DNA of 64,000 bases. It comes from Oscillospiraceae bacterium. Lineage in GTDB: Bacteria > Bacillota > Clostridia > Oscillospirales > Acutalibacteraceae. Location: positions 1-64,000 of the forward strand of contig SVPV01000004.1 in the NCBI GenBank assembly GCA_015065725.1, written 5' to 3'. The first letter of the stretch is position 1; the number at the start of each line of letters is the position of its first letter. Shown piece after piece: positions 25,967 to 36,188 of the stretch. Below the pieces are notes generated by a model. That model was given only the letters and a program-made list of their open reading frames with translations. It had not been told where the DNA came from and ran no database searches. The position numbers and the translations under genes are program-made.

Positions 25967-25983
25967 TTTTTTAAAATAAAAAG

Positions 25984-26009
25984 CCGACGGTATACTGCTG
26001 TCGGTTTTT
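25984..26009 (+). terminator. Second terminator-like hairpin upstream of the phage cassette
   Basis: CCGAC and GTCGG with a partial inner stem and five T. Together with the previous hairpin it isolates the phage cassette from the host operon. Confidence 0.65.
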
Positions 26010-26086: not shown

Positions 26087-26377
26087 ATGAAGGACACAAA
26101 TCTACTGTTAAACGGTGCCCTTAATGCATTACTTAATGAAAAGCTATCCGAGCGGGAGGTAGAATCGCTTAAAGAGGAAGGGTTTAATCTTAAAAACCAA
26201 AAACGCAGTGCCGCAGTTATGATAGCACTTTATAAAAAGGCAGCAGCAGGCGACCTTTCTGCTATTAAGGAGCTCCGTAGCATCGCGGGTGATGAGCAGC
26301 AACCTGAACGGAGTGCTAAAAAGGCGGTGATAATTATTGATGACATCGAGTCTTCGAATGTCACAGATAGTAGGTAA
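26087..26377 (+). CDS. Putative small terminase subunit
   Basis: The 96-residue protein precedes and overlaps the large terminase gene, the usual place of TerS. It is mostly helical and charged (LNEKLSEREVESLKEEGFNL, MIALYKKAAAGDLSAIKELRSIAG). No helix-turn-helix is clearly recognisable. GGGAGGTGA lies 5-6 bases before the ATG. The assignment rests mainly on position. Confidence 0.6.
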   Translation: MKDTNLLLNGALNALLNEKLSEREVESLKEEGFNLKNQKRSAAVMIALYKKAAAGDLSAIKELRSIAGDEQQPERSAKKAVIIIDDIESSNVTDSR

Positions 26378-27647
26378 CGGCTATGACGATTTCTGGAACT
26401 GCCAAAAACGCTACAGAGTGTTAAAGGGCGGCAAAGGAAGTAAAAAAAGCACAACGACAGCCCTTAATTTTATATACAGAATTATGAAATATAAGGACTC
26501 AAATCTTTTGGTGGTACGTCAGATTATGAATACCCACCGCGACAGCACCTTTGCTCAGCTACGTTGGGCACAGGAAAAGCTTGGTGTTTCTGCTCTTTGG
26601 TTAAATAAGGTGTCGCCGATGGAAATGACCTATCTGCCTACGGGGCAGAAGATACTTTTTCGCGGCTTCGATGATGTTTTGAAGTTGGCTTCAACCACCG
26701 TACCTACGGGATATCTTTGTTGGGTTTGGGTGGAGGAGGCTTACGAAATTGCTCGTGAGGAGGATTTCGAAAAGCTTGACCTGTCAATACCGCGAGGAAA
26801 AATTCCCGATCCGCTTTTCAAGCAGACCACGCTAACCTTTAATCCTTGGAGTGAGGCACATTGGCTGAAATCAAGATTTTTCGACCGCAAAAGCGATAAT
26901 ACGGCGGTGTTTTCGACCAACTATCTTATTAATGAATTTTTAGACGAAACCGACCGCAAGGTATTTGAACAGATGAAGGAGAAAAACAGAAGACGCTACG
27001 AGGTAGCAGGACTTGGAAATTGGGGTGTAGCTGAGGGACTTGTTTTTGAAAACTGGGAGGTAGGCATACCCGAAATAGCAAGGGAAGACGAGCATTTATG
27101 GAAAAGCTTCTTCGGTCTTGATTATGGTTACACAAACGACCCCACCGCCTTTGTGGCATTTAAGGCAAATACACGGGATAAGCTTATATATATTTATGAT
27201 GAATTTTACAAAAAAAGAATGCTTAACTGTGATATTGCCGAAGAAATAAAGCGTCGCGGATATGCCAAAGAGCGAATTCGTGCCGACTGTGCCGAGCCTA
27301 AATCCAACGACGATTTAAAGCGTCTTGGAATTAGTAGAATAATGCCGTCGGTAAAGGGTAGGGACAGTATTTTGAATGGCATTTCAAAAATATGCGAATA
27401 CAAAATTTTCGTTGACCCTAAATGCGTTAATATGATACGCGAGCTTTCAAGCTATGTATACGACACACGGGCTAGAGAAAACGGAATGTTACTTCCCGTA
27501 GATGAGAATAACCATCTTTGTGATGCACTGCGTTACGCTTTTGAGGACGTAAAGTTTTTCAAAGCATCAAACTCTAACGGGGAGGAAAGCGGCGGTATGA
27601 GGCTTGGTATTACGGGGTCGGATTTTAAGAAAGGATGGAGCATATGA
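26340..27647 (+). CDS. Phage terminase large subunit (PBSX-like)
   Basis: TerL is the ATP-driven DNA packaging motor and nuclease. Walker A is LKGGKGSKKST near residue 28 (a variant with Lys for Gly). Walker B is VWVEEAYEI. The nuclease domain begins FFGLDYGYTNDPTAFVAF and continues with RADCAEPKSNDD and the C-terminal CDALRYAFED. The 435-residue length is typical. The start is uncertain (ATG 26340 or 26358); both overlap the preceding gene. Confidence 0.95.
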   Translation: MTSSLRMSQIVGNGYDDFWNCQKRYRVLKGGKGSKKSTTTALNFIYRIMKYKDSNLLVVRQIMNTHRDSTFAQLRWAQEKLGVSALWLNKVSPMEMTYLPTGQKILFRGFDDVLKLASTTVPTGYLCWVWVEEAYEIAREEDFEKLDLSIPRGKIPDPLFKQTTLTFNPWSEAHWLKSRFFDRKSDNTAVFSTNYLINEFLDETDRKVFEQMKEKNRRRYEVAGLGNWGVAEGLVFENWEVGIPEIAREDEHLWKSFFGLDYGYTNDPTAFVAFKANTRDKLIYIYDEFYKKRMLNCDIAEEIKRRGYAKERIRADCAEPKSNDDLKRLGISRIMPSVKGRDSILNGISKICEYKIFVDPKCVNMIRELSSYVYDTRARENGMLLPVDENNHLCDALRYAFEDVKFFKASNSNGEESGGMRLGITGSDFKKGWSI

Positions 27648-27841
27648 GCGTTTTTAGCTTTTTAGCGGTTTGTGTGGCGGCGTTTTTATTCGGTATGCTT
27701 GTAGGAGTTATGGGCAATACTGCAAAAAACACTGTATCGCCTATCAAATTTAAAAATCATAGAGAGGATATAAGCTCTCTTGCTATGACCAACCGCGAAT
27801 ACAGAAATTTTCTTAATTACGACGGCACCGAACAGAATTAG
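27644..27841 (+). CDS. Small single-pass membrane protein in the phage cassette
   Basis: The 65-residue product has one N-terminal membrane helix (FSFLAVCVAAFLFGMLVGVMG) and a hydrophilic tail. Its ATG overlaps the terL stop (ATGA), with AAGGA upstream. It has no charge pattern typical of a two-helix holin. A single-helix protein between terminase and scaffold genes is unusual; a pinholin-like or membrane-docking role is conceivable but unproven. Confidence 0.65.
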   Translation: MSVFSFLAVCVAAFLFGMLVGVMGNTAKNTVSPIKFKNHREDISSLAMTNREYRNFLNYDGTEQN

Positions 27842-27858
27842 TACTAAAGGAGAAAAAT

Positions 27859-28455
27859 ATGCAACAGGAAAATATAACTCTGACCGACATAGAGGAAAAA
27901 GAGCCATCCTATACCTTTAATATTGACGGTAACGAGCGTGAATACAGCATTGAAGAAATAAAAGATTTAATGCAAAAAGGTTTTAATTATCAGCTTGTTT
28001 CTGACGATTATCAGCGTGTTCTTAATATGGCACAGGCTGAGGGCAGTAGTGTTGGTGAATACTTAAGTCGGCTTGAGGAAAAAAGGATTGCCGAAAGGCG
28101 AGAGGAGTTACTTAATAAGTGCGGCGACAGCGAGCTTGCGGAATATATTTTAAATCTTGAGGCTGCGGCTTCGGCAAATAAAGATGCCGATTTTGATGAG
28201 CTTCGAGAGTATTTTCCGCAAATAAAGGATAAAAGCGAATTGCCTTTAGAGGTAACCTGTGCCGCAAAACTTAAGGGCACTAGGCTTCTTGACGAGTGGC
28301 TACGCTACCGCCAAAGAAAACAAAGTGAACTATCGGCCGTAAGGTCAAAACAAAAATCGGGTCAAGAGAGCAGTATCGGCTCACAGCGTGAGCATATAAC
28401 TGCCGATTATGACCCCGCAAAGCTCCAATTCATAAAGGGAGTTTGGGGCAAATAA
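27859..28455 (+). CDS. Putative phage scaffolding protein
   Basis: The 198-residue, highly charged, mostly helical protein lies directly before the capsid gene, the usual place of the scaffold. It includes a predicted coiled region (YLSRLEEKRIAERREELLNK) and a basic C-terminal part (WLRYRQRKQSELSAVRSKQK), as scaffolds use to bind capsid. No protease motif is seen, and no separate head protease gene exists in the cassette. Confidence 0.7.
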   Translation: MQQENITLTDIEEKEPSYTFNIDGNEREYSIEEIKDLMQKGFNYQLVSDDYQRVLNMAQAEGSSVGEYLSRLEEKRIAERREELLNKCGDSELAEYILNLEAAASANKDADFDELREYFPQIKDKSELPLEVTCAAKLKGTRLLDEWLRYRQRKQSELSAVRSKQKSGQESSIGSQREHITADYDPAKLQFIKGVWGK

Positions 28456-28474
28456 AAAACAAAGGAGAAAAATT

Positions 28475-29659
28475 ATGTCAATCAATTCTATTATTAATGC
28501 AGAAAAATATTCAGAAGAGCTCGACCGTGTGTTTTCACAAAAGAGCGTTACAGGCTTCTTTGCAGACAATGCAATGGCAGCTAAATTCGTAGGAGCAAAG
28601 ACGGTTATAATCCCTGATATCGATTTCCAAGGACTTACCGATTATGACCGCAACAGCGGTTATAGCAAGGGTGCTATCAGTGTAAAAAACACCTCTTATA
28701 CCATGACAATGGACAGAGCCCGTTCTTTGCAGATAGACCGTGAGGATATGGACGAAACAGGTATTGCAAATCTTGCAGGCAAGGTTTTGGGCGAATATGT
28801 TCGCACCAAGGTAGTACCCGAGTGTGATGCTTATGTTATTTCAAAACTATATAGTATTGCAAATGACAAGGGCAATATCATCGACGCCGATGCCAGCACA
28901 CCTATTGCTAACCTTCAGGACTTAATTAATCAGGTACGCGGCAAGGTTGGTTTTGATGAGGAATTAGTAGCATTTATTGATAACTCTATGTACGCTCATA
29001 TGCAGTCCTCTGATGAGCTTTCTAAGATGATTACCGTTTCCGACTTTAAGCAGGGCGACGTTAATCTTACTGTTAGAAGCTTTAACGGTGTGGCACTTCT
29101 TCCCGTTGTAAATGAGAGAATGAAGACCGAATTTGATTTTGCAGTTGATGAAAACGGCGGTTTTAAGCCCACCGATGCCGCTCGCGACATTTATATGCTT
29201 GTATGTCCGAAAAATGCGGTGCATCTTGTTAAAAAGACAGAAAATATGCGTGTTTTCACACCTGAGCAGAATGTTGATGCAGATGCTTACAAGTTTGACT
29301 ACCGTATTTATTATGATGCTTTTGTAGGTAAAGACGGTGCTAATGCTATTTATGCTTGGCCGGCACCGACCATAACATTTACTACTAAGCCCGAATCTAC
29401 CGAAGCTCCTAATACTATAGGTGCATACCTTAGTGTTTCTGCTAAATCCACAGGAGAAGTAACATATCAGTGGTACTCATGTGAGGATGAGACAGGACGT
29501 AATCCTAAGCGTATTTTAGGTCAGACATCAGGTTCATTTGAAGTTGGTTTAGATGCTCCTGCAGGCACATATTACTATTTTGCAAGAGCTTATGTAGACT
29601 CGTTAATTTACAAGGATACAGATGTTGTTAAGGTTGAATTATACGAACCCGATCTTTAA
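28475..29659 (+). CDS. Phage major capsid protein with C-terminal Ig-like domain
   Basis: The first ~290 residues look like an HK97-fold capsid protein of the P22/siphophage gp-type: an N-terminal arm, KGAISVKNTSYTMTMDRARSLQIDREDMDETG, and the EAD-like LVCPKNAVHLVKKTENMRVFTPEQNVDADAYKFDYRIYYDAFV end. Residues ~295-394 form an Ig-like/Big domain (TITFTTKPESTEAP, VTYQWYSCEDETGR, AGTYYYFARAYV), which would decorate the capsid surface. A strong terminator follows, as often after capsid genes. Confidence 0.88.
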   Translation: MSINSIINAEKYSEELDRVFSQKSVTGFFADNAMAAKFVGAKTVIIPDIDFQGLTDYDRNSGYSKGAISVKNTSYTMTMDRARSLQIDREDMDETGIANLAGKVLGEYVRTKVVPECDAYVISKLYSIANDKGNIIDADASTPIANLQDLINQVRGKVGFDEELVAFIDNSMYAHMQSSDELSKMITVSDFKQGDVNLTVRSFNGVALLPVVNERMKTEFDFAVDENGGFKPTDAARDIYMLVCPKNAVHLVKKTENMRVFTPEQNVDADAYKFDYRIYYDAFVGKDGANAIYAWPAPTITFTTKPESTEAPNTIGAYLSVSAKSTGEVTYQWYSCEDETGRNPKRILGQTSGSFEVGLDAPAGTYYYFARAYVDSLIYKDTDVVKVELYEPDL

Positions 29660-29681
29660 TAATATCATCTAAACAATTTGG

Positions 29682-29709
29682 GCGGGAGGCAACTGCCTCC
29701 CGCTTTTTT
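29682..29709 (+). terminator. Strong terminator after the capsid gene
   Basis: A perfect stem GCGGGAGGC-AACT-GCCTCCCGC followed by six T. It would reduce transcription of the portal and later genes relative to capsid. Confidence 0.95.
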
Positions 29710-29743
29710 AAAATAAAATATTTTCGTTATTTAGGAGGAAAAA

Positions 29744-31375
29744 ATGAAAATTAATCCAAACGAAATTTTTAAAGAATATGAAAACGGCGTAAGCTTTAAG
29801 GAATCGATAGGTTCAAGGGGATTATACGAACAGACAAAAATTAACGAACGCTTCTTTATTGGCGACCAATGGCACGGTGCTAAGTGCGGTAACGACCGCC
29901 CTCTTGTTCGTCATAATATAATCAAGCGAATAGGTGATTTTAAAATGGCACAGGTGCTATCTTCTCCTATATCCGTAAACTTTAGTGCCGACGGTGTGCC
30001 AAATACTGTTGGTATTAAGGGCAAAAAACGTCTGTATGACAGAGTTATGGAGTCAAATTATATAAAGGATTTTTCTGATAAAGCCGACAATGATGAAATA
30101 GGACTTGTTATGTCTTTATTGTCTGCCTATCAAAAGGTTACTGCCGAAAGGGTAGGTCTTAATACTATTTGCAGTACATTGCTTAAAAACGCCTACGTGT
30201 CGGGTACAGGTATACTTTACACCTATTGGGACCAAGAAATAAACACAGGTCTTTATGCTGATGATACACAAAACACAGCTATAAAGGGTGATATTCGTTG
30301 CGAGGTTTTAGATGCTACAAATGTATATTTCGGCGATCCCGTGCTTACAAGTGTTGAGGAGCAACCATATATAATTATAGCTTCAAGGCAGTCAATTTTG
30401 TCGGTTTTAGGTGAGGCTGAGTGTTTCGGTGCAGATAAAATATCCTTAAACCGCATTAAATCCTCGGCGATAGACGGCAAGGTTTTGGTGCTTACAAAGC
30501 TGTTTAAAACTAAAAACGACAACGGTGAAACTACTATAAAGTGTGTAAAAGCTACCGAAAATGCAACTGTACGACCTATGTTTGATACAGAGCTTCATCT
30601 TTATCCGTTATCCATTTTTAATTGGGAAACACGCTCTGATAGGATATACGGGGAGAGCGAAATCACCTATCTAATTCCTAATCAAATCGCTATTAACCGT
30701 ATGATAACCGCACAGGTATGGGCTTCTATGATAAGCGGCATGCCTATGATGGTGGTTAACGGTGATACCGTTTCGGGCGAGCTTACTAATGACCCTGGGC
30801 AGATAATTAAAATTTACGGTTCTAACGAGGATGTTTCGGGTGCTATAGGGTATGTTACTCCGCCTGATTTTAGTTCAAACTTCACACAAAGCATTAGCGA
30901 CCTTATAAACAACACCTTAACACAAAGCGGTGCTAATGAGGTAGCGTTAGGTGACAGTAAGCCTGATAACGCAACAGCACTTATAACAATGCAAAGAGCG
31001 GCAACATTACCATTACAACTTATTAAAAACCGTTTTTATGCCTTTGTTGAAGATTTTTCTAGAGTATGGGTGGATTTTTGGATAACCAAATACGGAAACA
31101 GACGTATAAAAATAGAGGATGAAAACGGAATATGGTATATGCCGTTTAATGCCGAAAGATATAAAAATCTTATGATAACCGCAAAAGTAGAAGTGGGAGC
31201 CGATAATGTTTACAGTGCCGCAGAAAGCGTGAATACACTTACTTCGCTTTATGAAAAGGGAATTATAAATAAGCGTCAGTATCTAAAGCGTTTACCGGTA
31301 GGTGTTATACCTGATATAAGCGGACTAATGCTAGAGCTTGAGGAAGAGGAGGCACCTGAAAATGACAGCAAATAA
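29744..31375 (+). CDS. Phage portal protein
   Basis: The 543-residue protein fits the portal family: an N-terminal NERFFIGDQWHG block, RPLVRHNIIKRIGDFKMAQV, a central LIPNQIAINRMITAQVWASM helix and a C-terminal acidic end. It forms the dodecameric DNA entry channel. AGGAGG lies before the ATG. Placement after capsid instead of directly after TerL is unusual. It overlaps the next gene by 14 bases. Confidence 0.85.
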   Translation: MKINPNEIFKEYENGVSFKESIGSRGLYEQTKINERFFIGDQWHGAKCGNDRPLVRHNIIKRIGDFKMAQVLSSPISVNFSADGVPNTVGIKGKKRLYDRVMESNYIKDFSDKADNDEIGLVMSLLSAYQKVTAERVGLNTICSTLLKNAYVSGTGILYTYWDQEINTGLYADDTQNTAIKGDIRCEVLDATNVYFGDPVLTSVEEQPYIIIASRQSILSVLGEAECFGADKISLNRIKSSAIDGKVLVLTKLFKTKNDNGETTIKCVKATENATVRPMFDTELHLYPLSIFNWETRSDRIYGESEITYLIPNQIAINRMITAQVWASMISGMPMMVVNGDTVSGELTNDPGQIIKIYGSNEDVSGAIGYVTPPDFSSNFTQSISDLINNTLTQSGANEVALGDSKPDNATALITMQRAATLPLQLIKNRFYAFVEDFSRVWVDFWITKYGNRRIKIEDENGIWYMPFNAERYKNLMITAKVEVGADNVYSAAESVNTLTSLYEKGIINKRQYLKRLPVGVIPDISGLMLELEEEEAPENDSK

Positions 31376-31715
31376 AATTTTTCTAGCTTCCTTGGACCTA
31401 CTCGGATACAGTGGAATAAACGGTGATAAATCGGGACTTGAGGTACTTGAGAGCCGTGCGGTTTGTGCTATAAATCAAATTCTAGCAGACCTTTCTGTCA
31501 ATATAGAAATATCAACTCTAGAGGATACTTTGGCTCTTCAAAACGGCGGAAACGAAGTGCTTATATACGGTGTGGCAATGCTTTTAGCATTAAGTATTGA
31601 CGATGCCGAAAAAAACAGGTTTTTCGCCACAATTTACAACAGAAAAAGAACGTCGTATAAGGTAGAAATTGCAAAGATAAACGATGTTCTACCTTTTAGT
31701 GACGGTGGGGTGTGA
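31362..31715 (+). CDS. Putative head-tail connector protein
   Basis: The 117-residue protein is helical with a DUF/gp6-type adaptor look (AINQILADLSVNIEISTLEDTLALQNG, VLIYGVAMLLALSIDDAEKN, FFATIYNRKR). Its place right after the portal suggests the adaptor ring. GGAGG precedes the ATG at 31362, and the gene lies partly inside the portal gene end. Confidence 0.65.
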   Translation: MTANKIFLASLDLLGYSGINGDKSGLEVLESRAVCAINQILADLSVNIEISTLEDTLALQNGGNEVLIYGVAMLLALSIDDAEKNRFFATIYNRKRTSYKVEIAKINDVLPFSDGGV

Positions 31716-31717
31716 TT

Positions 31718-33781
31718 ATGAAATTCCCACATCTTAACAGAAGCTTTAAAAGCTTTGAGCGTGACATTAAGCTTGACGGCGGACTTAACACATCTACTGC
31801 ACCAATGGTTTTATCGGAAAACACTTTAAGTGAATGTAATAATATGATTTTTGAAAACAGTCTGCTTAAAACCCGTAAAGGCTTTTACAGTGACGAGGGT
31901 ATGATAATTAAAAACCTTGCAGATAACGGTGAATATACAGTAAAGCCCCTTGAATTTTCAAGTGAACAGTTCGTTTTAAACGGAGATATGGGAAGAATCG
32001 GTCACTTTATATCAGGTGACGGTATGACCTACCAAAAAATTAATGTGTTTTTCTTTTATAACGACAATTCACACATAAGTCTAGGTGAGATATTTTTCAA
32101 TCGCATAGACGAAAACACCATTTTTTTACCACACAAATTTATATTTTTCAAGGGTGCTGCTACCTATGGCAGTGGAATATATCTCTTTTGTGAAGCTGTA
32201 AATTATACCGCCACAGCAACAGAAAAAACATATTTAATGTATGAACTTAAATCTGATTTTACCGATTGGATACGTCTAGGGGAAACCGATTGTTATATAC
32301 CTACCTTGTACTATAACGGCAGGGGAAATCTGTTCTTTGAATCTGCCGAGGCTGATAATGATGCTTATAAAAAACCTTTAGAGCTTGAATCGCAAAATAT
32401 GCTCACAGGTTGGTTTAAGACCTATTTTTCTGCAGACGGCAAGTCGGACACCTTTCAGCTTCCCGTTACATCACTTGACAATAAAGCTGTAGTTTGTACC
32501 CTAAACCTTAAAGACGGCGTTTCGTACCAGTGGTTCGTTCGCGAGGGCGAAAGTGAGCGAGAAATAGACTTTTTAACTACCAAGGTAAAGGTCAAGGTGA
32601 ACAGAGAAAACGGTATTATTAAATTTCTACAAGACGAAAATCCTTATCCTCTTCCTATAGTTTTAAGGGGAAACACAAATAACCTTTGCATTATGGCATG
32701 CAAAAAAGTGCCTTATGGTTTTGAAAGTATAGTAAGCTCAGATAACGCAGTTACCTATAAATCCAATATTGTTTTGTCGGGAAATTCTATAAATGAAAAT
32801 GAGGTTTATGTGGCATCAATAAAAAATCCGCTTTACTTTTCAAAGGATTCTAAAACATATATCGGTTCACCTTATGAAAAAATAACCGCTTTAAGTATTT
32901 TAGGGGACAGTCTTGTTGCTTTTAAGGCAAACGAAGTCTATTCTATTAAAATTACAAACGGCTCCTTGCTTGCCTCTACCGAGCTTATAAGCGGAATACA
33001 AAAAAGCTTTTATGCCCCTCAAACTATAAGCAGTACCCTTATAAATTCCAAGGTGGGTTGTGCTTTTCCTAAAACCGTTTGTGCTTTAGGACCGTACCTT
33101 TTGTGGAAAAGCAAATTTAAAATATATGCTATGAGTGAATCGGGAAAGCATTATACTGTTTCTTATCCCATTAGTGCAGAAATGGAAGAAAATACAAACA
33201 ACTTAAATGTTCCGTTCGCATTTCTTTACGAAAACTTTTACTGCGTTGTTATAAACGGAAAGATATATCTTGCCGATATAAATAATGCCACTTTAAAAAA
33301 CGAAAAATTAAATGCTAGGTGGTATATGTGGAGTCTGCCAAGCGGTGCGGAGTGTAGTTATGCTATAGATTTTGAGGGTAAAACTTTATTTGCTTTAAAG
33401 GATATAAGAGGAAAGCTTTGTTATAAAGCTATATTAGACGGTGCAAAAGACATAGTTTTCGAAATTTCAAATGATGAAATATCAAAATTGGAATATGAAG
33501 TAGGCGGATATTTTAAAACGGCATTTTTTGATACCGACGCCATAAAAATTGAAACCGTTACACTAAGTGCCGGTGCCTTAGATTGCCTAGGTATAGAGGT
33601 TGATACACACTATAAAGCGTTAAGCTTTAAAAAGAATGTTTCTCTAACGTTTGAAGAAGCACTAAAGGGAATTCTTAAAAAAATAACCGTTTATCCGTCA
33701 TTAAAAGCTGACAAGATGAGTATAAAAATTAGTGGAGATAATATGTTTTATATTGATAAATTAAATTTCACATATAGGTAG
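31718..33781 (+). CDS. Large phage structural protein, podovirus hub/nozzle-like
   Basis: The 687-residue protein opens with DIKLDGGLNTSTAPMVL...NNMIFENSLLKTRKGF. This 'GGLN ... L/KTRKG' block is typical of beta-propeller-like tail hub or head-completion proteins of short-tailed phages. The rest is beta-rich with repeated aromatic strands. It could be the hub that closes the head. It starts at ATG 31718 with GGGG upstream and overlaps none; a GTG at 31712 is less likely. The ribosome site of the next, host-like gene lies over its stop codon. Confidence 0.65.
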   Translation: MKFPHLNRSFKSFERDIKLDGGLNTSTAPMVLSENTLSECNNMIFENSLLKTRKGFYSDEGMIIKNLADNGEYTVKPLEFSSEQFVLNGDMGRIGHFISGDGMTYQKINVFFFYNDNSHISLGEIFFNRIDENTIFLPHKFIFFKGAATYGSGIYLFCEAVNYTATATEKTYLMYELKSDFTDWIRLGETDCYIPTLYYNGRGNLFFESAEADNDAYKKPLELESQNMLTGWFKTYFSADGKSDTFQLPVTSLDNKAVVCTLNLKDGVSYQWFVREGESEREIDFLTTKVKVKVNRENGIIKFLQDENPYPLPIVLRGNTNNLCIMACKKVPYGFESIVSSDNAVTYKSNIVLSGNSINENEVYVASIKNPLYFSKDSKTYIGSPYEKITALSILGDSLVAFKANEVYSIKITNGSLLASTELISGIQKSFYAPQTISSTLINSKVGCAFPKTVCALGPYLLWKSKFKIYAMSESGKHYTVSYPISAEMEENTNNLNVPFAFLYENFYCVVINGKIYLADINNATLKNEKLNARWYMWSLPSGAECSYAIDFEGKTLFALKDIRGKLCYKAILDGAKDIVFEISNDEISKLEYEVGGYFKTAFFDTDAIKIETVTLSAGALDCLGIEVDTHYKALSFKKNVSLTFEEALKGILKKITVYPSLKADKMSIKISGDNMFYIDKLNFTYR

Positions 33782-33788
33782 GAAAGAA

Positions 33789-34952
33789 ATGAAAAAACTA
33801 GTATTGGCGTTAATTGTTATTATCTGTATTTGTGCTTGCGGATGTCAAAATCCAATAAAAAAGATAGAGGGAAACAGCAAGATTTATGGGGTATGGTTTT
33901 CCTGCTTTGAACTCGATAAAATGCTTGCTACAGGGGATTTTAAGGCGGAATTTTCGTCCTTGATTGAAGACTGTAGCGAACTTGGTATAACCGATATGTT
34001 TGTACATACACGTCCTTTTTGTGACTCGATATATAAGTCGGAATATTTTCCGTTAAGAGCCTCTTTAGAGGGCATAGACTATGATATACTAGAATATATG
34101 ATAAACGCCTGTCATCAAAAGGGAATACGTGTACACGCATGGATTAATCCGTATAGGGTGAAAACAGACAGTACAGATATAAACACTTTGCCTACAAATA
34201 GTCCTGCAAGGCGGTGGCTTGAGGATGATGACCCGCAAAACGATACCAATGTAGTTCTGCTTGACGGAATATATTTAAACCCTGCAGCAGAAGATGCCAC
34301 AAGGCTTGTTTTGGACGGCATACGTGAGATTATAAATAACTATGATATCGACGGAATACATTTTGACGATTATTTTTACCCTACAGAGAGTTCTGATTTC
34401 GATAAGCTTCTATATGAAAAATACTCAGATAAAAACCTGTTTCCCTTGCCGCTTTCTGATTGGCGTAGAGAAAATGTCAACGCCTTTGTAAGTGAGGTAA
34501 GCCGCGTTATTAAATACCAAAACAGCGATGTGGTTTTCAGTATCAGTCCTGCCGCATCACTTGATAAAAATTACGAGAGCCTTTATGCCGATATAGCTTT
34601 GTGGACTAGAAACGGCTATATAGATTGGATAATTCCGCAGCTTTATTTCGGGTTTAATTACCCCGAAACCGAGTTTCAGTTTGATAACCTTTATAAGCAG
34701 TGGCAAGAAACTGCAAAAAACAGCGACGTAAAGCTAATAATAGGCTTGGCAAGCTACAAGGTAGATACTATAGAACCCGACGAATGTGAGGAATGGTCAA
34801 GCGGTAACCTTTTAAAACGCCAAATTGAACATATAAACAACTCTTCCGACGGTTGCTGCTTTTTCTCTTTGTCCTCACTTTTCGGCGATACTGAAAATCA
34901 AACAAACGAAAGGGAAAATATAAGGTCTTTAATAACGCGTTATAAAAATTAA
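33789..34952 (+). CDS. Lipoprotein glycoside hydrolase-like family 10 (YngK/DUF187-type)
   Basis: A lipoprotein signal with lipobox ICAC (Cys17) precedes a TIM-barrel domain: GVWFSCFELDKM, DMFVHTRPFCDSIYKSEYFP, GIRVHAWINPYRV, YDIDGIHFDDYFYP and WIIPQLYFGF are the GHL10 signatures. It probably acts on cell-wall or surface glycans from the outer membrane face. It begins only 7 bases after the phage gene stop with no terminator between, so it may be read from the phage cassette. Confidence 0.92.
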   Translation: MKKLVLALIVIICICACGCQNPIKKIEGNSKIYGVWFSCFELDKMLATGDFKAEFSSLIEDCSELGITDMFVHTRPFCDSIYKSEYFPLRASLEGIDYDILEYMINACHQKGIRVHAWINPYRVKTDSTDINTLPTNSPARRWLEDDDPQNDTNVVLLDGIYLNPAAEDATRLVLDGIREIINNYDIDGIHFDDYFYPTESSDFDKLLYEKYSDKNLFPLPLSDWRRENVNAFVSEVSRVIKYQNSDVVFSISPAASLDKNYESLYADIALWTRNGYIDWIIPQLYFGFNYPETEFQFDNLYKQWQETAKNSDVKLIIGLASYKVDTIEPDECEEWSSGNLLKRQIEHINNSSDGCCFFSLSSLFGDTENQTNERENIRSLITRYKN

Positions 34953-34994
34953 AAAATAATGCTGTCTTGTTTAATACAGACAGCATTATTTTTT
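34953..34994 (+). terminator. Terminator of the GHL10 gene
   Basis: AATAATGCTGTCT and AGACAGCATTATT form a 13-bp stem followed by T6. Confidence 0.92.
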
Positions 34995-35073: not shown

Positions 35074-35201
35074 TCACGTCACACTAAAATCTTGAAAATG
35101 CGGTCGATTGGTGTTAAAATAGTTATGTATTAATACTTTTGACACAATAAAACAATGTTCGACGTTTGTATTATACAATACTTAATTCGGAGTTGCAACC
35201 T

Positions 35202-36188
35202 ATGAAACATAAAATTTTGATGGAAGCCCCGCCGATTATAAGGGATTTTTTAACCTATAACGAAACAATAAAGGGTAAATCATCTTTAACGGTAGATGAG
35301 TACTATCTTGATTTGCAAACCTTTTTTCGTTATCTACTAAAAATCAGGGGCAAAACCGAAGAAACCGAATTTGAAAAAATAGATATTATGGCGGTTGATA
35401 TTGATTTACTTAAAACCGTAACGGTGTCGGACCTTTATTCTTTTATAGTTTTTTGTAAAAACGAAAGAGATAACAGTCCTGCTACAAGGGCTAGAAAAAC
35501 CTCTACACTTCGCATTTTCTTTAAATATCTTTCGGTGCAGACAAAGTTGCTTGATAGTAATCCTGCTGAAATGCTAGAAGCTCCAAAGATTAAGCAGTCA
35601 CTGCCGAAACACTTAACTCTTGAAGATTCGCTTGAGCTTTTAAGCGTGGTTGACGGTCCTAATAAGCAAAGGGATTATTGTATTTTAACTCTGTTTTTAA
35701 ATTGCGGATTAAGACTTTCGGAGCTTTGCGGACTGAATCTTGGCGATATACGTTCCGACGGTACAATGCGTATACTAGGTAAAGGCAATAAGGAAAGAAT
35801 AGTATACTTGAATGATGCTTGCAAAACGGCTTTAGAGGATTATATACGTGTACGTCCAAAGGATAATATTGTGGCTACCGATAGAAACGCCCTTTTTATA
35901 AGCCGTAATCATAGGCGTATTAGCAATAAAACGGTGCAGGCTACAGTGCAAAAATATTTGTCACTTGCGGGACTTTCAGGACAGGGACTTTCCACACATA
36001 AGCTACGCCATACCGCCGCTACACTTATGTATCAGCACGGTAATGTAGATATTCGCGTTTTAAAGGATATTTTAGGTCACTCAAACCTAGGCACCACACA
36101 AATATATACTCATATTTCAGATAATCAAATCAAAAATGCTATTGATTCAAATCCGCTTTCAAACGCTAAAATAAAAAAAGAGCAATAA
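35202..36188 (+). CDS. Tyrosine recombinase, XerC/XerD-like
   Basis: The 328-residue protein has an N-terminal SAM-like core-binding domain and a C-terminal catalytic domain. Catalytic residues are visible: Arg in NCGLRLSELCGL, Lys in GKGNKERIV, HKLRHTAATL, LGHSNLGTTQIYTHI with the nucleophilic Tyr. CGGAG lies 9 bases before ATG 35202; a TTG further upstream is ignored. It is near the phage cassette but resembles the housekeeping chromosome-dimer recombinase, so it is probably not the phage integrase. Confidence 0.93.
   Translation: MKHKILMEAPPIIRDFLTYNETIKGKSSLTVDEYYLDLQTFFRYLLKIRGKTEETEFEKIDIMAVDIDLLKTVTVSDLYSFIVFCKNERDNSPATRARKTSTLRIFFKYLSVQTKLLDSNPAEMLEAPKIKQSLPKHLTLEDSLELLSVVDGPNKQRDYCILTLFLNCGLRLSELCGLNLGDIRSDGTMRILGKGNKERIVYLNDACKTALEDYIRVRPKDNIVATDRNALFISRNHRRISNKTVQATVQKYLSLAGLSGQGLSTHKLRHTAATLMYQHGNVDIRVLKDILGHSNLGTTQIYTHISDNQIKNAIDSNPLSNAKIKKEQ

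Follow-up and report, generated by a model that had tools for sequence, protein, structure and literature searches.

Gene content of the cassette

The 64,000-nt stretch of DNA analysed here (hereafter the window) carries, according to its open reading frames, a compact and intact cassette of phage-type genes at 26087-34952, which raises the question of what tailless head and packaging genes are doing in the chromosome of an uncultured gut bacterium. Based on the sequences compared in this study, the cassette is best read, with a probability of roughly 0.77, as a podovirus-type element resembling gene transfer agents (GTAs), which would have originated from a podophage lineage of the Oscillospirales, been domesticated before at least four tested genera of the window's family split, and then been passed on with the chromosome. 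The order terS-terL-c6-scaffold-capsid-portal-adaptor-hub-GHL10 is intact in the window, with all genes on the + strand:

25979..26009, + strand, predicted terminator-like hairpin (consensus scan, 14 pairs) ahead of the cassette, after the upstream phosphopantetheinyl transferase gene
26087..26377, + strand, TerS, 96 aa, without a helix-turn-helix (HTH) domain, C-terminal VIIIDDI tail kept
26337..27647, + strand, TerL, 436 aa (Terminase_3, E 8e-50; Terminase_3C, E 8e-28)
27635..27841, + strand, c6, small membrane protein of 68 aa between terL and the scaffold gene, with one likely membrane span
27859..28455, + strand, scaffold-like protein, 198 aa, named by position and homologues at the same place
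28475..29659, + strand, major capsid protein, 394 aa (residues 3-294 match phrog_422, E 8e-72)
29680..29705, + strand, strong hairpin and T run in the capsid-portal gap (the gap folds at -25.4 kcal/mol in the window)
29744..31375, + strand, portal, 543 aa (phrog_156, E 3e-21)
31362..31715, + strand, adaptor-like protein (g125), 117 aa, named by position and conservation in 48 aligned sequences
31712..33781, + strand, hub, putative short-tail nozzle-like virion protein, 689 aa
33789..34952, + strand, GHL10 protein, 387 aa (Pfam GHL10, 4e-51; PDB 5oq2, Cwp19, 4e-43)
34951..34994, + strand, predicted terminator-like hairpin at the end of the unit (fold of -21.0 kcal/mol, then a T run)

The head and packaging genes named in an earlier note on this DNA are indeed open at these coordinates, but the note overlooked c6 (27635-27841), and the unit extends to 34952. 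As the note had stated, tail, repressor and replication genes are absent from the cassette, and so is an integrase. Judging from the gene maps of the window and its relatives, neither an integrase nor a replication gene could be fitted inside the cassette; the maps show no tail genes in the cassettes of the window's genus, and a complete prophage set (tail, lysogeny and replication genes) is not present at the locus. No maturation-protease gene was seen either, but this is no defect, because phage-type loci also lack a separate protease gene between terL and capsid. The position of the portal after the capsid, which had been regarded as unusual, is inherited, being shared by the phage-type loci L129, L134, L177, L186, L190 and others.

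Packaging and head proteins

In a Pfam scan, an HTH family was found in none of 32 cassette TerS sequences (that of the window and every second of the 62 collected), and HTH or Terminase_2 scored over the cut-off in five of six phage TerS (a seventh candidate, from L186, was not TerS-like and was set aside). A TerS without a DNA-binding domain has been described for RcGTA (PMC6854486), and the TerS of FpGTA, the GTA of Faecalibacterium prausnitzii, is likewise described as having no obvious one in the published account consulted (PMC12946183). The absent domain is a published mark of GTA terminases, and the cassette TerS fits it as judged from the protein sequences. In TerL, G31-S38 (except G34), E133, E134, D262, D317 and D396 were conserved at ≥95% among 66 sequences; we take these residues to belong to the Walker A/B motifs (ATPase) and the nuclease. 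The c6 protein gave no useful PHROG match; it ends in NFLNYDGTEQ in the window (motif EYxNFLxYDGxxQ), and its homologues occur in phage-type loci.

The scaffold, adaptor and hub of the window matched no Pfam model over the cut-off and had no strong PHROG match (none at all for the scaffold, none useful for the adaptor), and their names rest on position and homologues. Searches of solved structures with profiles of the hub, adaptor, portal and capsid gave no useful hit. From its position and conservation, g125 probably acts as the adaptor. The hub profile matched gene 14 of Bacillus phage Pascal, annotated as hypothetical, with a probability of 99.5, and a phage-type hub homologue matched phrog_3287, a virion structural protein; a nozzle role for the hub appears plausible.

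Mean column identity of the capsid alignment (A1, 24 sequences) was 74%. The last ~100 aa of the capsid matched no family, and we presume them to be Ig-like from their YQWY..C pattern. This tail does not mark the cassettes as such, as the phage-type capsids of L099 and L123 are equally long. An extra domain of this surface type is present in most cassette capsids, as might be expected if the head had been re-used as a container or structure for non-DNA content. We consider that scenario extremely improbable, since TerS, TerL and the portal would be useless in such a container and would not stay intact.

Predicted signals and the lysis slot

The consensus scan found 16 terminator-like sites versus 7.4 in shuffles, while the promoter scan showed no excess (27 sites versus 27.3). 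A terminator-like hairpin was detected in 25 of 67 capsid-portal gaps (two of the 67 being phage-type), compared with 1 of 67 after one single-base shuffle, and the hairpin is perhaps an attenuator that holds capsid output above that of the remaining genes. The predicted terminators at either end would set the cassette apart from its neighbour genes on both sides.

The GHL10 protein has a lipoprotein-like start (lipobox read by eye) and is probably a Cwp19-like peptidoglycan-degrading enzyme in the endolysin slot, making it the probable lysis gene. Cwp19 itself is described as a lytic transglycosylase of stationary-phase autolysis (PMC6016235). Among 56 assessable cassettes (58 loci compared, the phage-type L099 and L123 being set aside), GHL10 starts ≤150 bases from the hub in 43, and a recognised lysis gene (GHL10, amidase or holin) follows the hub in 51; in the other five, the sole lysis-type gene is c9, whose holin role comes from a weak match. 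Sister genera fill the same slot with an amidase, holins or an SH3/weakly NlpC/P60-like protein. We therefore count GHL10 as a cassette gene, as it lies near the hub in 43 of 56 cassettes while the outer flanks vary between species; the possibility of a host glycosidase adjoining by chance was rejected on these grounds and on the lysis-type proteins of the sister genera. The earlier note was thus wrong in seeing no lysis gene, and its description of the cassette as joined to a host-like operon is partly a misreading, given that GHL10 belongs to the cassette and terminators are predicted on both sides. In the window, the Xer-like gene downstream of the cassette clustered with no ORF from the remaining regions compared.

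Phage-type relatives

The nearest relatives of the cassette are phage-like contigs with the same gene order. The IMG/VR loci L177, L186 and L190 (contigs of 31-35 kb) and the prophage-like L039, which has two extra genes before the portal, share the order terS-terL-c6-scaffold-capsid-portal-adaptor-hub. Their portals are 46-48% identical to that of the window but longer, and they add a post-hub gene, a protein of more than 1250 and up to 2140 aa (with a MuF_C domain in L177 and L186), and many further genes upstream. The post-hub phage gene was absent in 18 of 18 cases, and a tail-fibre domain (A6) was absent in 23 of 25 cassette-bearing genomes of the genus, including the window's own. Delivery may not work, because both are mostly absent. 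More distantly, the portal of a Pagevirus (Bacillus phage Pascal) is 28% identical over 95%, and its gene 14 is homologous to the hub; this virus is a full podophage with a tail spike, unlike the cassette, and its capsid did not cluster with that of the window at blastp 1e-4.

Phage-type loci and cassettes share a bin in three cases (L082 with L099, L104 with L133, and L067 with L127). The cassette might accordingly be imagined as a capsid-forming satellite, which builds the heads itself and takes the tails from a helper such as these related phages; like such a satellite, the cassette encodes head and packaging proteins of its own but no tail. The defining features of cf-PICIs are an integrase and a replication module, and no module of this type was found inside the cassette. 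The satellite option of the earlier note seems very unlikely to us, as (i) neither an integrase nor a replication gene would fit inside the cassette, (ii) its inheritance follows the host (see below), and (iii) with the TerS DNA-binding domain lost, selection of its own DNA would hardly be possible.

Distribution, inheritance and selection

A portal of this lineage was found in 31 of 36 relatives of the same genus, 27 with the cassette (some cut by contig ends) and four with the phage-type version only, and cassettes made up 71 of the 80 loci of a species-level capsid scan. Seventy loci were reduced to 57 assessable cassettes by setting aside ten truncated by contig ends, L070 (cut at 25 bases from the end of its contig) and the phage-type L099 and L123. 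The six core genes are all full length in 52 of the 57, and recurrence of this gene order in 52 full-length copies is far beyond chance; the remaining five are damaged, split or missing a gene. The cassette is also absent in one clade and elsewhere, and these absences, together with the five damaged copies, indicate that it is dispensable.

The cassette and ribosomal trees of 32 genomes, one of which (G114) carries a phage-type locus, shared 22 of 29 splits (chance mean 0.27, maximum 4); the host tree was built without genus g73 and without genera lacking the cassette. Cassette and host distances were correlated with a Mantel r of 0.95 (permuted maximum 0.51), and for the 21 genomes of the genus r was 0.85 versus 0.42. 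Three splits of the host tree, each supported at >0.9, are contradicted by well-supported splits of the cassette tree. Apart from these, the agreement of the trees strongly supports inheritance with the host chromosome.

Among the five closest pairs, dN/dS was 0.006-0.064 for the capsid, 0.030-0.166 for the portal and 0.08-0.24 for the hub; TerL gave 0.027-0.049 in four pairs. Values were ≤0.31 for every gene tested in the five closest pairs, indicating purifying selection. The search of relatives and the per-gene dN/dS that the earlier note had proposed thus gave a cassette that recurs with varying flanks and under purifying selection. Relaxed selection was not observed, and phage-type versions of the lineage do exist, but at other loci (L039 in G004; L099, which shares a bin with the cassette L082). 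Neither of the two conditions that the note had named as refuting was borne out.

These results bear on whether the locus is a prophage in decay or the product of a recent deletion. Missing tail, replication and integration genes and the core gene losses or damage in 5 of 57 copies could be taken as signs of either. Nevertheless, the same gene content in 52 of 57 copies, the purifying selection and the old shared inheritance led us to reject decay. A recent deletion, which the earlier note had also considered, is excluded because several genera share the same compact cassette; this spread refutes both for the window, and we give them next to no weight. The note's suggestion of a domesticated, GTA-like system is strongly supported instead by host-like inheritance, purifying selection, conserved motor residues and the loss of the TerS DNA-binding domain.

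Comparison with known gene transfer agents

The cassette shows several features of GTAs: head and packaging genes that derive from a phage and have become fixed in the chromosome, host-like inheritance, purifying selection, no replication or integration genes within the cassette, and a TerS without a specific DNA-binding domain. RcGTA is siphovirus-like and has tail genes, a set that the tailless cassette lacks. RcGTA and the alphaproteobacterial GTAs are described as resembling the cassette in forming a host-fixed cluster with a TerS without HTH (PMC6854486).

Our literature search on GTAs in Firmicutes, Clostridia, Faecalibacterium, the rumen and Oscillospiraceae returned a single directly relevant report, PMC12946183. 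FpGTA is the closest known system, set beside the cassette by its published description, the cassette being known from its genes and its hosts from metagenome bins. FpGTA is described as having ~40 nm heads without visible tails and ~9 kb of DNA. Like the cassette, it has an operon of some ten genes for a podovirus-type head and DNA packaging (TerS, TerL, portal, scaffold and capsid among them), and it carries lysis genes but none for replication (PMC12946183). Its order, as deduced from the way the genes are listed and from their accession numbers (portal and capsid two apart), is TerS-TerL-portal-scaffold-capsid, in contrast to scaffold-capsid-portal in the window, and a second operon ~125 kb away carries tail-fibre and receptor-binding genes (PMC12946183), whereas the window genome has none for the one tail-fibre domain (A6) searched. 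A further difference is that the lysis-type enzyme of the window is GHL10, encoded within the same operon. In a portal tree built without FpGTA, the portals of the order's remaining families belong to different clades. A Faecalibacterium 16S probe matched 0 of 23 genomes at no mismatch and 0 of 80 at one mismatch. The cassette was probably domesticated separately from FpGTA.

It is attractive to speculate, albeit at slightly less than even odds, that podovirus-type GTAs arose more than once in the order from one podophage pool by the same steps, in which the genes for tail and replication were lost, TerS gave up its DNA-binding domain, and a lysis gene became fixed as the last of the operon. 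The lysis enzyme would then have been swapped among amidase, NlpC/P60-like and Cwp19-like types in the window's family, GTA loss would go with loss of ComEC-like uptake parts, and, with phages of the ancestral lineage extant, the change would be readable gene by gene. ComEC-type sequences occurred in 31 of the 31 genomes searched for them but did not exceed the family cut-off in any.

A possible mode of action

If the cassette works as a GTA, some cells of the population would switch on the operon, perhaps when stressed or in stationary phase. Scaffold and capsid would assemble a small head around the portal, which the TerS-TerL motor, acting without sequence specificity, would fill with fragments of the bacterial chromosome. 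The adaptor and hub would close the head as a minimal short nozzle, and GHL10, alone here and with holins in some relatives, would open the wall so that particles leave. The Ig-like capsid tail may serve attachment, given that most genomes of the genus yielded no tail fibre. Uptake by the recipient is the least certain step.

Doubt about delivery leads to the alternative of a domesticated particle for killing or altruistic lysis similar to PBSX, in which heads are made and may take up DNA that is never delivered. PBSX is a tailed particle, unlike the tailless cassette. The lack of the tail fibre and the post-hub phage gene in most genomes of the genus and the retention of lysis-type genes agree with such a particle, but the strong purifying selection on the TerL motor residues and the portal, which killing does not need, speaks against it, and we regard it as unlikely. 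The same option is left open for FpGTA (PMC12946183). We favour the GTA-like reading.

Implications

To our knowledge, few GTAs are known outside Alphaproteobacteria. The Faecalibacterium GTA of 2026 was presented as the first podovirus-like one, according to the account consulted (PMC12946183), and the present cassette, judged by its genes, looks like a second podovirus-type lineage. It occurs in dozens of species that have not been cultured, many of them from the guts of herbivores. Because related phages can be set beside it, the passage from virus to GTA can be tested step by step. An active cassette would allow bacteria of the rumen and hindgut to exchange genes steadily. Our comparison also suggests that collections of virus contigs may contain such cassettes labelled as phages.

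Organisation of the cassette

The cassette, a phage-derived head and packaging block, occupies positions 26087-34952 of the + strand as a single gene block flanked by genes for a phosphopantetheinyl transferase and a Xer-like recombinase, in a bin of 1.46 Mb with 97.6% completeness. The earlier note described its genes as intact, and every frame in this interval was found to be open; we also noticed a small gene, here called c6, which that note had overlooked and which the ORF filter of the window map had missed.

Features of the cassette, in gene order on the + strand
TerS, small terminase subunit
TerL, large terminase subunit
c6, 27635-27841, +, 68-residue membrane protein
Scaffold-like protein
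Major capsid protein, extended at its C terminus by an Ig-like part (residues ~295-394)
Portal
Adaptor-like protein, small
Hub, 689 residues
GHL10 protein, with a lipoprotein-like start
Predicted terminator-like hairpins, 5' and 3' of the block and in the capsid-portal gap

Relatives of c6 (55-80 aa, one membrane span) lie between terL and the scaffold gene in 26 of 41 region maps, including both cassettes and phage-type loci, i.e., longer related loci of virus contigs and some bins that keep the same head order and carry further phage genes. Their C-terminal motif EYxNFLxYDGxxQ is near-constant, and we found no protein family describing c6. The capsid-portal hairpin was predicted in 25/67 gaps of related loci (two of the 67 from phage-type loci) versus 1/67 after one single-base shuffle. 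The Ig-like capsid tail is up to 43% identical to stretches of long frames (846 and 4098 aa) at G125:C24:29464-29709 and G165:C4 (genome:contig); because a similar stretch occurs within long frames of the family, the tail may originate from a surface protein. The Xer-type recombinase (35201-36188) begins just past the cassette terminator, matches TIGR02224 below its cut-off, and clustered with no ORF of the other mapped regions.

Distribution

Portal matches were obtained in 31 of 36 same-genus relatives. Mapping of the fetched regions placed the same cassette in 27 of the 36 (some cut by contig ends), the phage-type version only in four (G004, G007, G009 and G030) and neither version in five; the cassette is missing across one whole host clade (G004, G011, G019, G032 and G034) and from G028. 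A capsid scan with one genome per species left 80 of 84 hits, nearly all in bins of uncultured Oscillospiraceae, Ruminococcaceae or 'Clostridia', and many bin names refer to ruminant or horse gut samples. By gene map, these 80 loci comprise 71 cassettes (three cut before TerL), eight phage-type loci and one distant locus. Across the whole order, 137 of 394 sampled genomes encode a portal of the cassette family; 124 of these genomes have one match only. On short IMG/VR contigs (L136-L139), capsid identity is 51-61% along the full protein; judged from this similarity, contigs classed as 'viral' may in some cases be fragments of host-encoded cassettes, and virus collections may therefore include domesticated elements.

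In other families of the order, a hub-family gene lies near the portal in 18 of 20 fetched loci, which may be domesticated blocks or prophages, and the portal precedes the capsid in all 12 with a called capsid-family frame. Blocks of this portal-first kind, with head and packaging genes, occur repeatedly in the order (L309-L328; families f13, f14, f17, f20, f21 and f25). By eye, L319 and L324 at least possess a TerS candidate with a helix-turn-helix-like stretch, and the short TerS candidates of three f13 loci (L321, L322 and L323) show no obvious helix-turn-helix; these f13 blocks are perhaps relatives of FpGTA, the gene transfer agent of Faecalibacterium prausnitzii.

Integrity, selection and inheritance

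From the 70 mapped loci whose capsid carries the Ig-like tail, we removed ten cut by contig ends, L070 (which ends 25 bases from one) and the phage-type L099 and L123. Fifty-two of the 57 assessable cassettes are whole, with all six core genes at ≥85% of their usual length; in L068, L074, L111, L121 and L122, a part is lost, split or inverted, or no adaptor is recognisable. The per-gene dN/dS analysis proposed in the earlier note gave values of ≤0.31 for all genes in the five closest pairs, with maxima of 0.064 for the capsid in these pairs and 0.049 for TerL in four pairs.

A cassette tree (TerL, capsid and portal) and a host tree (ribosomal region) were compared for the 32 genomes with both data sets, including the phage-type G114; four of the five cassette genera were covered, as the cassette-bearing g73 gave no ribosomal locus, and cassette-free genera were left out. 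The trees have 22 of 29 splits in common versus a mean of 0.27 and a maximum of 4 with shuffled labels, and their distances correlate at 0.95 (0.85 for 21 genomes within the genus). There may have been some exchange, or an error in the trees, since three host splits of >0.9 support conflict with cassette splits that are themselves well supported. At capsid identities of >95%, 88-95%, 80-88% and 70-80%, the upstream flank gene is shared by 3/3, 6/11, 26/87 and 54/736 pairs and the downstream one by 2/3, 7/18, 12/83 and 13/733 pairs, respectively. Outer flanks common to close relatives and fading with distance fit a resident locus amid drifting gene order.

Phage ancestry

The same order, with the capsid ahead of the portal, is found on virus contigs (31-35 kb) and in some bacterial bins, where many other genes lie upstream of the head block. 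Downstream of the hub, these phage-type loci carry one further gene and then a protein of >1250 and up to 2140 residues, with a MuF_C domain in both of the two tested; the post-hub phage gene was found in 0/18 cassette-bearing genomes searched. In the portal tree, a single clade (support 0.979) unites 14 cassettes from five genera and adjoins a group of 20 phage-type sequences (0.906), which includes G114, fetched as a possible cassette, and several on short contigs that were assigned to this type from portal and gene map alone; support for the node uniting clade and group is 0.77. Cassettes of the genus g74 fall outside both groups (0.858), and families f13, f17 and f20 are placed elsewhere.

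Terminase and lysis slot

Two changes, in TerS and in the slot after the hub, point to function. Of six phage TerS proteins, five have an above-cut-off match to a helix-turn-helix or Terminase_2 family and the sixth a weak one; none of 32 cassette TerS proteins has such a match. The cassette proteins keep the C-terminal tail, and 11 of the 32 match DUF5681. Motor and nuclease residues of TerL are conserved at ≥95% across 66 sequences. Such a domain is also missing from the TerS of the alphaproteobacterial RcGTA, and its absence is put forward to explain why packaging is random (PMC6854486); the FpGTA paper notes the same lack (PMC12946183).

A GHL10 protein, an amidase or a family-recognised holin is encoded within 4.5 kb 3' of the hub in 51 of 56 assessable cassettes; in the other five, the only lysis-type gene encodes the small protein c9, which matches XhlA weakly at best. 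GHL10 accounts for 43 of the 56, its start always ≤150 bases from the hub, and the slot in other genera holds an amidase with a SPOR domain, a Hol44-type or SPP1-type holin or, in g74, a protein that combines an SH3 domain with a weak match to NlpC/P60. We take Escherichia coli DigH to be a member of the GHL10 protein's family. DigH is described as a hydrolase of denuded glycans (PMC12288456), and the one match of the window's GHL10 protein among solved structures is Cwp19, a reported lytic transglycosylase that acts in autolysis during stationary phase (PMC6016235).

Proposed function

Like FpGTA, the cassette most likely yields small DNA-filled heads, with a minimal nozzle at most, that are freed by lysis. 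The analysis establishes the anatomy of the cassette, its inheritance and selection, the loss in TerS and the occupation of the lysis slot. Its proteins would assemble a small head, DNA would be packaged at random, and the particles would be released by lysis and attach. FpGTA particles are reported to be about 40 nm, with about 9 kb of DNA and no tails seen (PMC12946183); this paper alone was directly relevant in our open-access literature search, whose scope excluded most subscription papers and all preprints. The two systems would share a way of working; they differ in gene order, lysis enzyme and the place of that enzyme. The cassette probably also had a distinct origin.

The C-terminal metallo-lactamase part of ComEC was detected, always below the family cut-off, in 18/18 tested cassette-bearing genomes of the genus and in G028, and in 0/4 tested genomes of the cassette-losing clade (G004, G011, G032 and G034). 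Particle production and DNA uptake were possibly lost together; because every match is below cut-off and a single event in one clade may be responsible, this is a lead only.

In the sister genus g149, tail-fibre-like genes lie inside the cassette (L115 and L117). A search of 44 genomes detected this tail-fibre-like domain in 13: 4/4 of g149, 3/3 of g98 and 1/3 of g117 (these last four on contigs other than the cassette's), 3/7 same-genus genomes without the cassette, and only 2/25 genomes that carry the cassette within the window's genus, in each case at a site away from it; the window's own genome had none. The tail-fibre-like domains on non-cassette contigs (G342:C12:135495-135905, G134:C22, G245:C3 and G319:C44) suggest a parallel to the FpGTA II operon, which is likewise separate.
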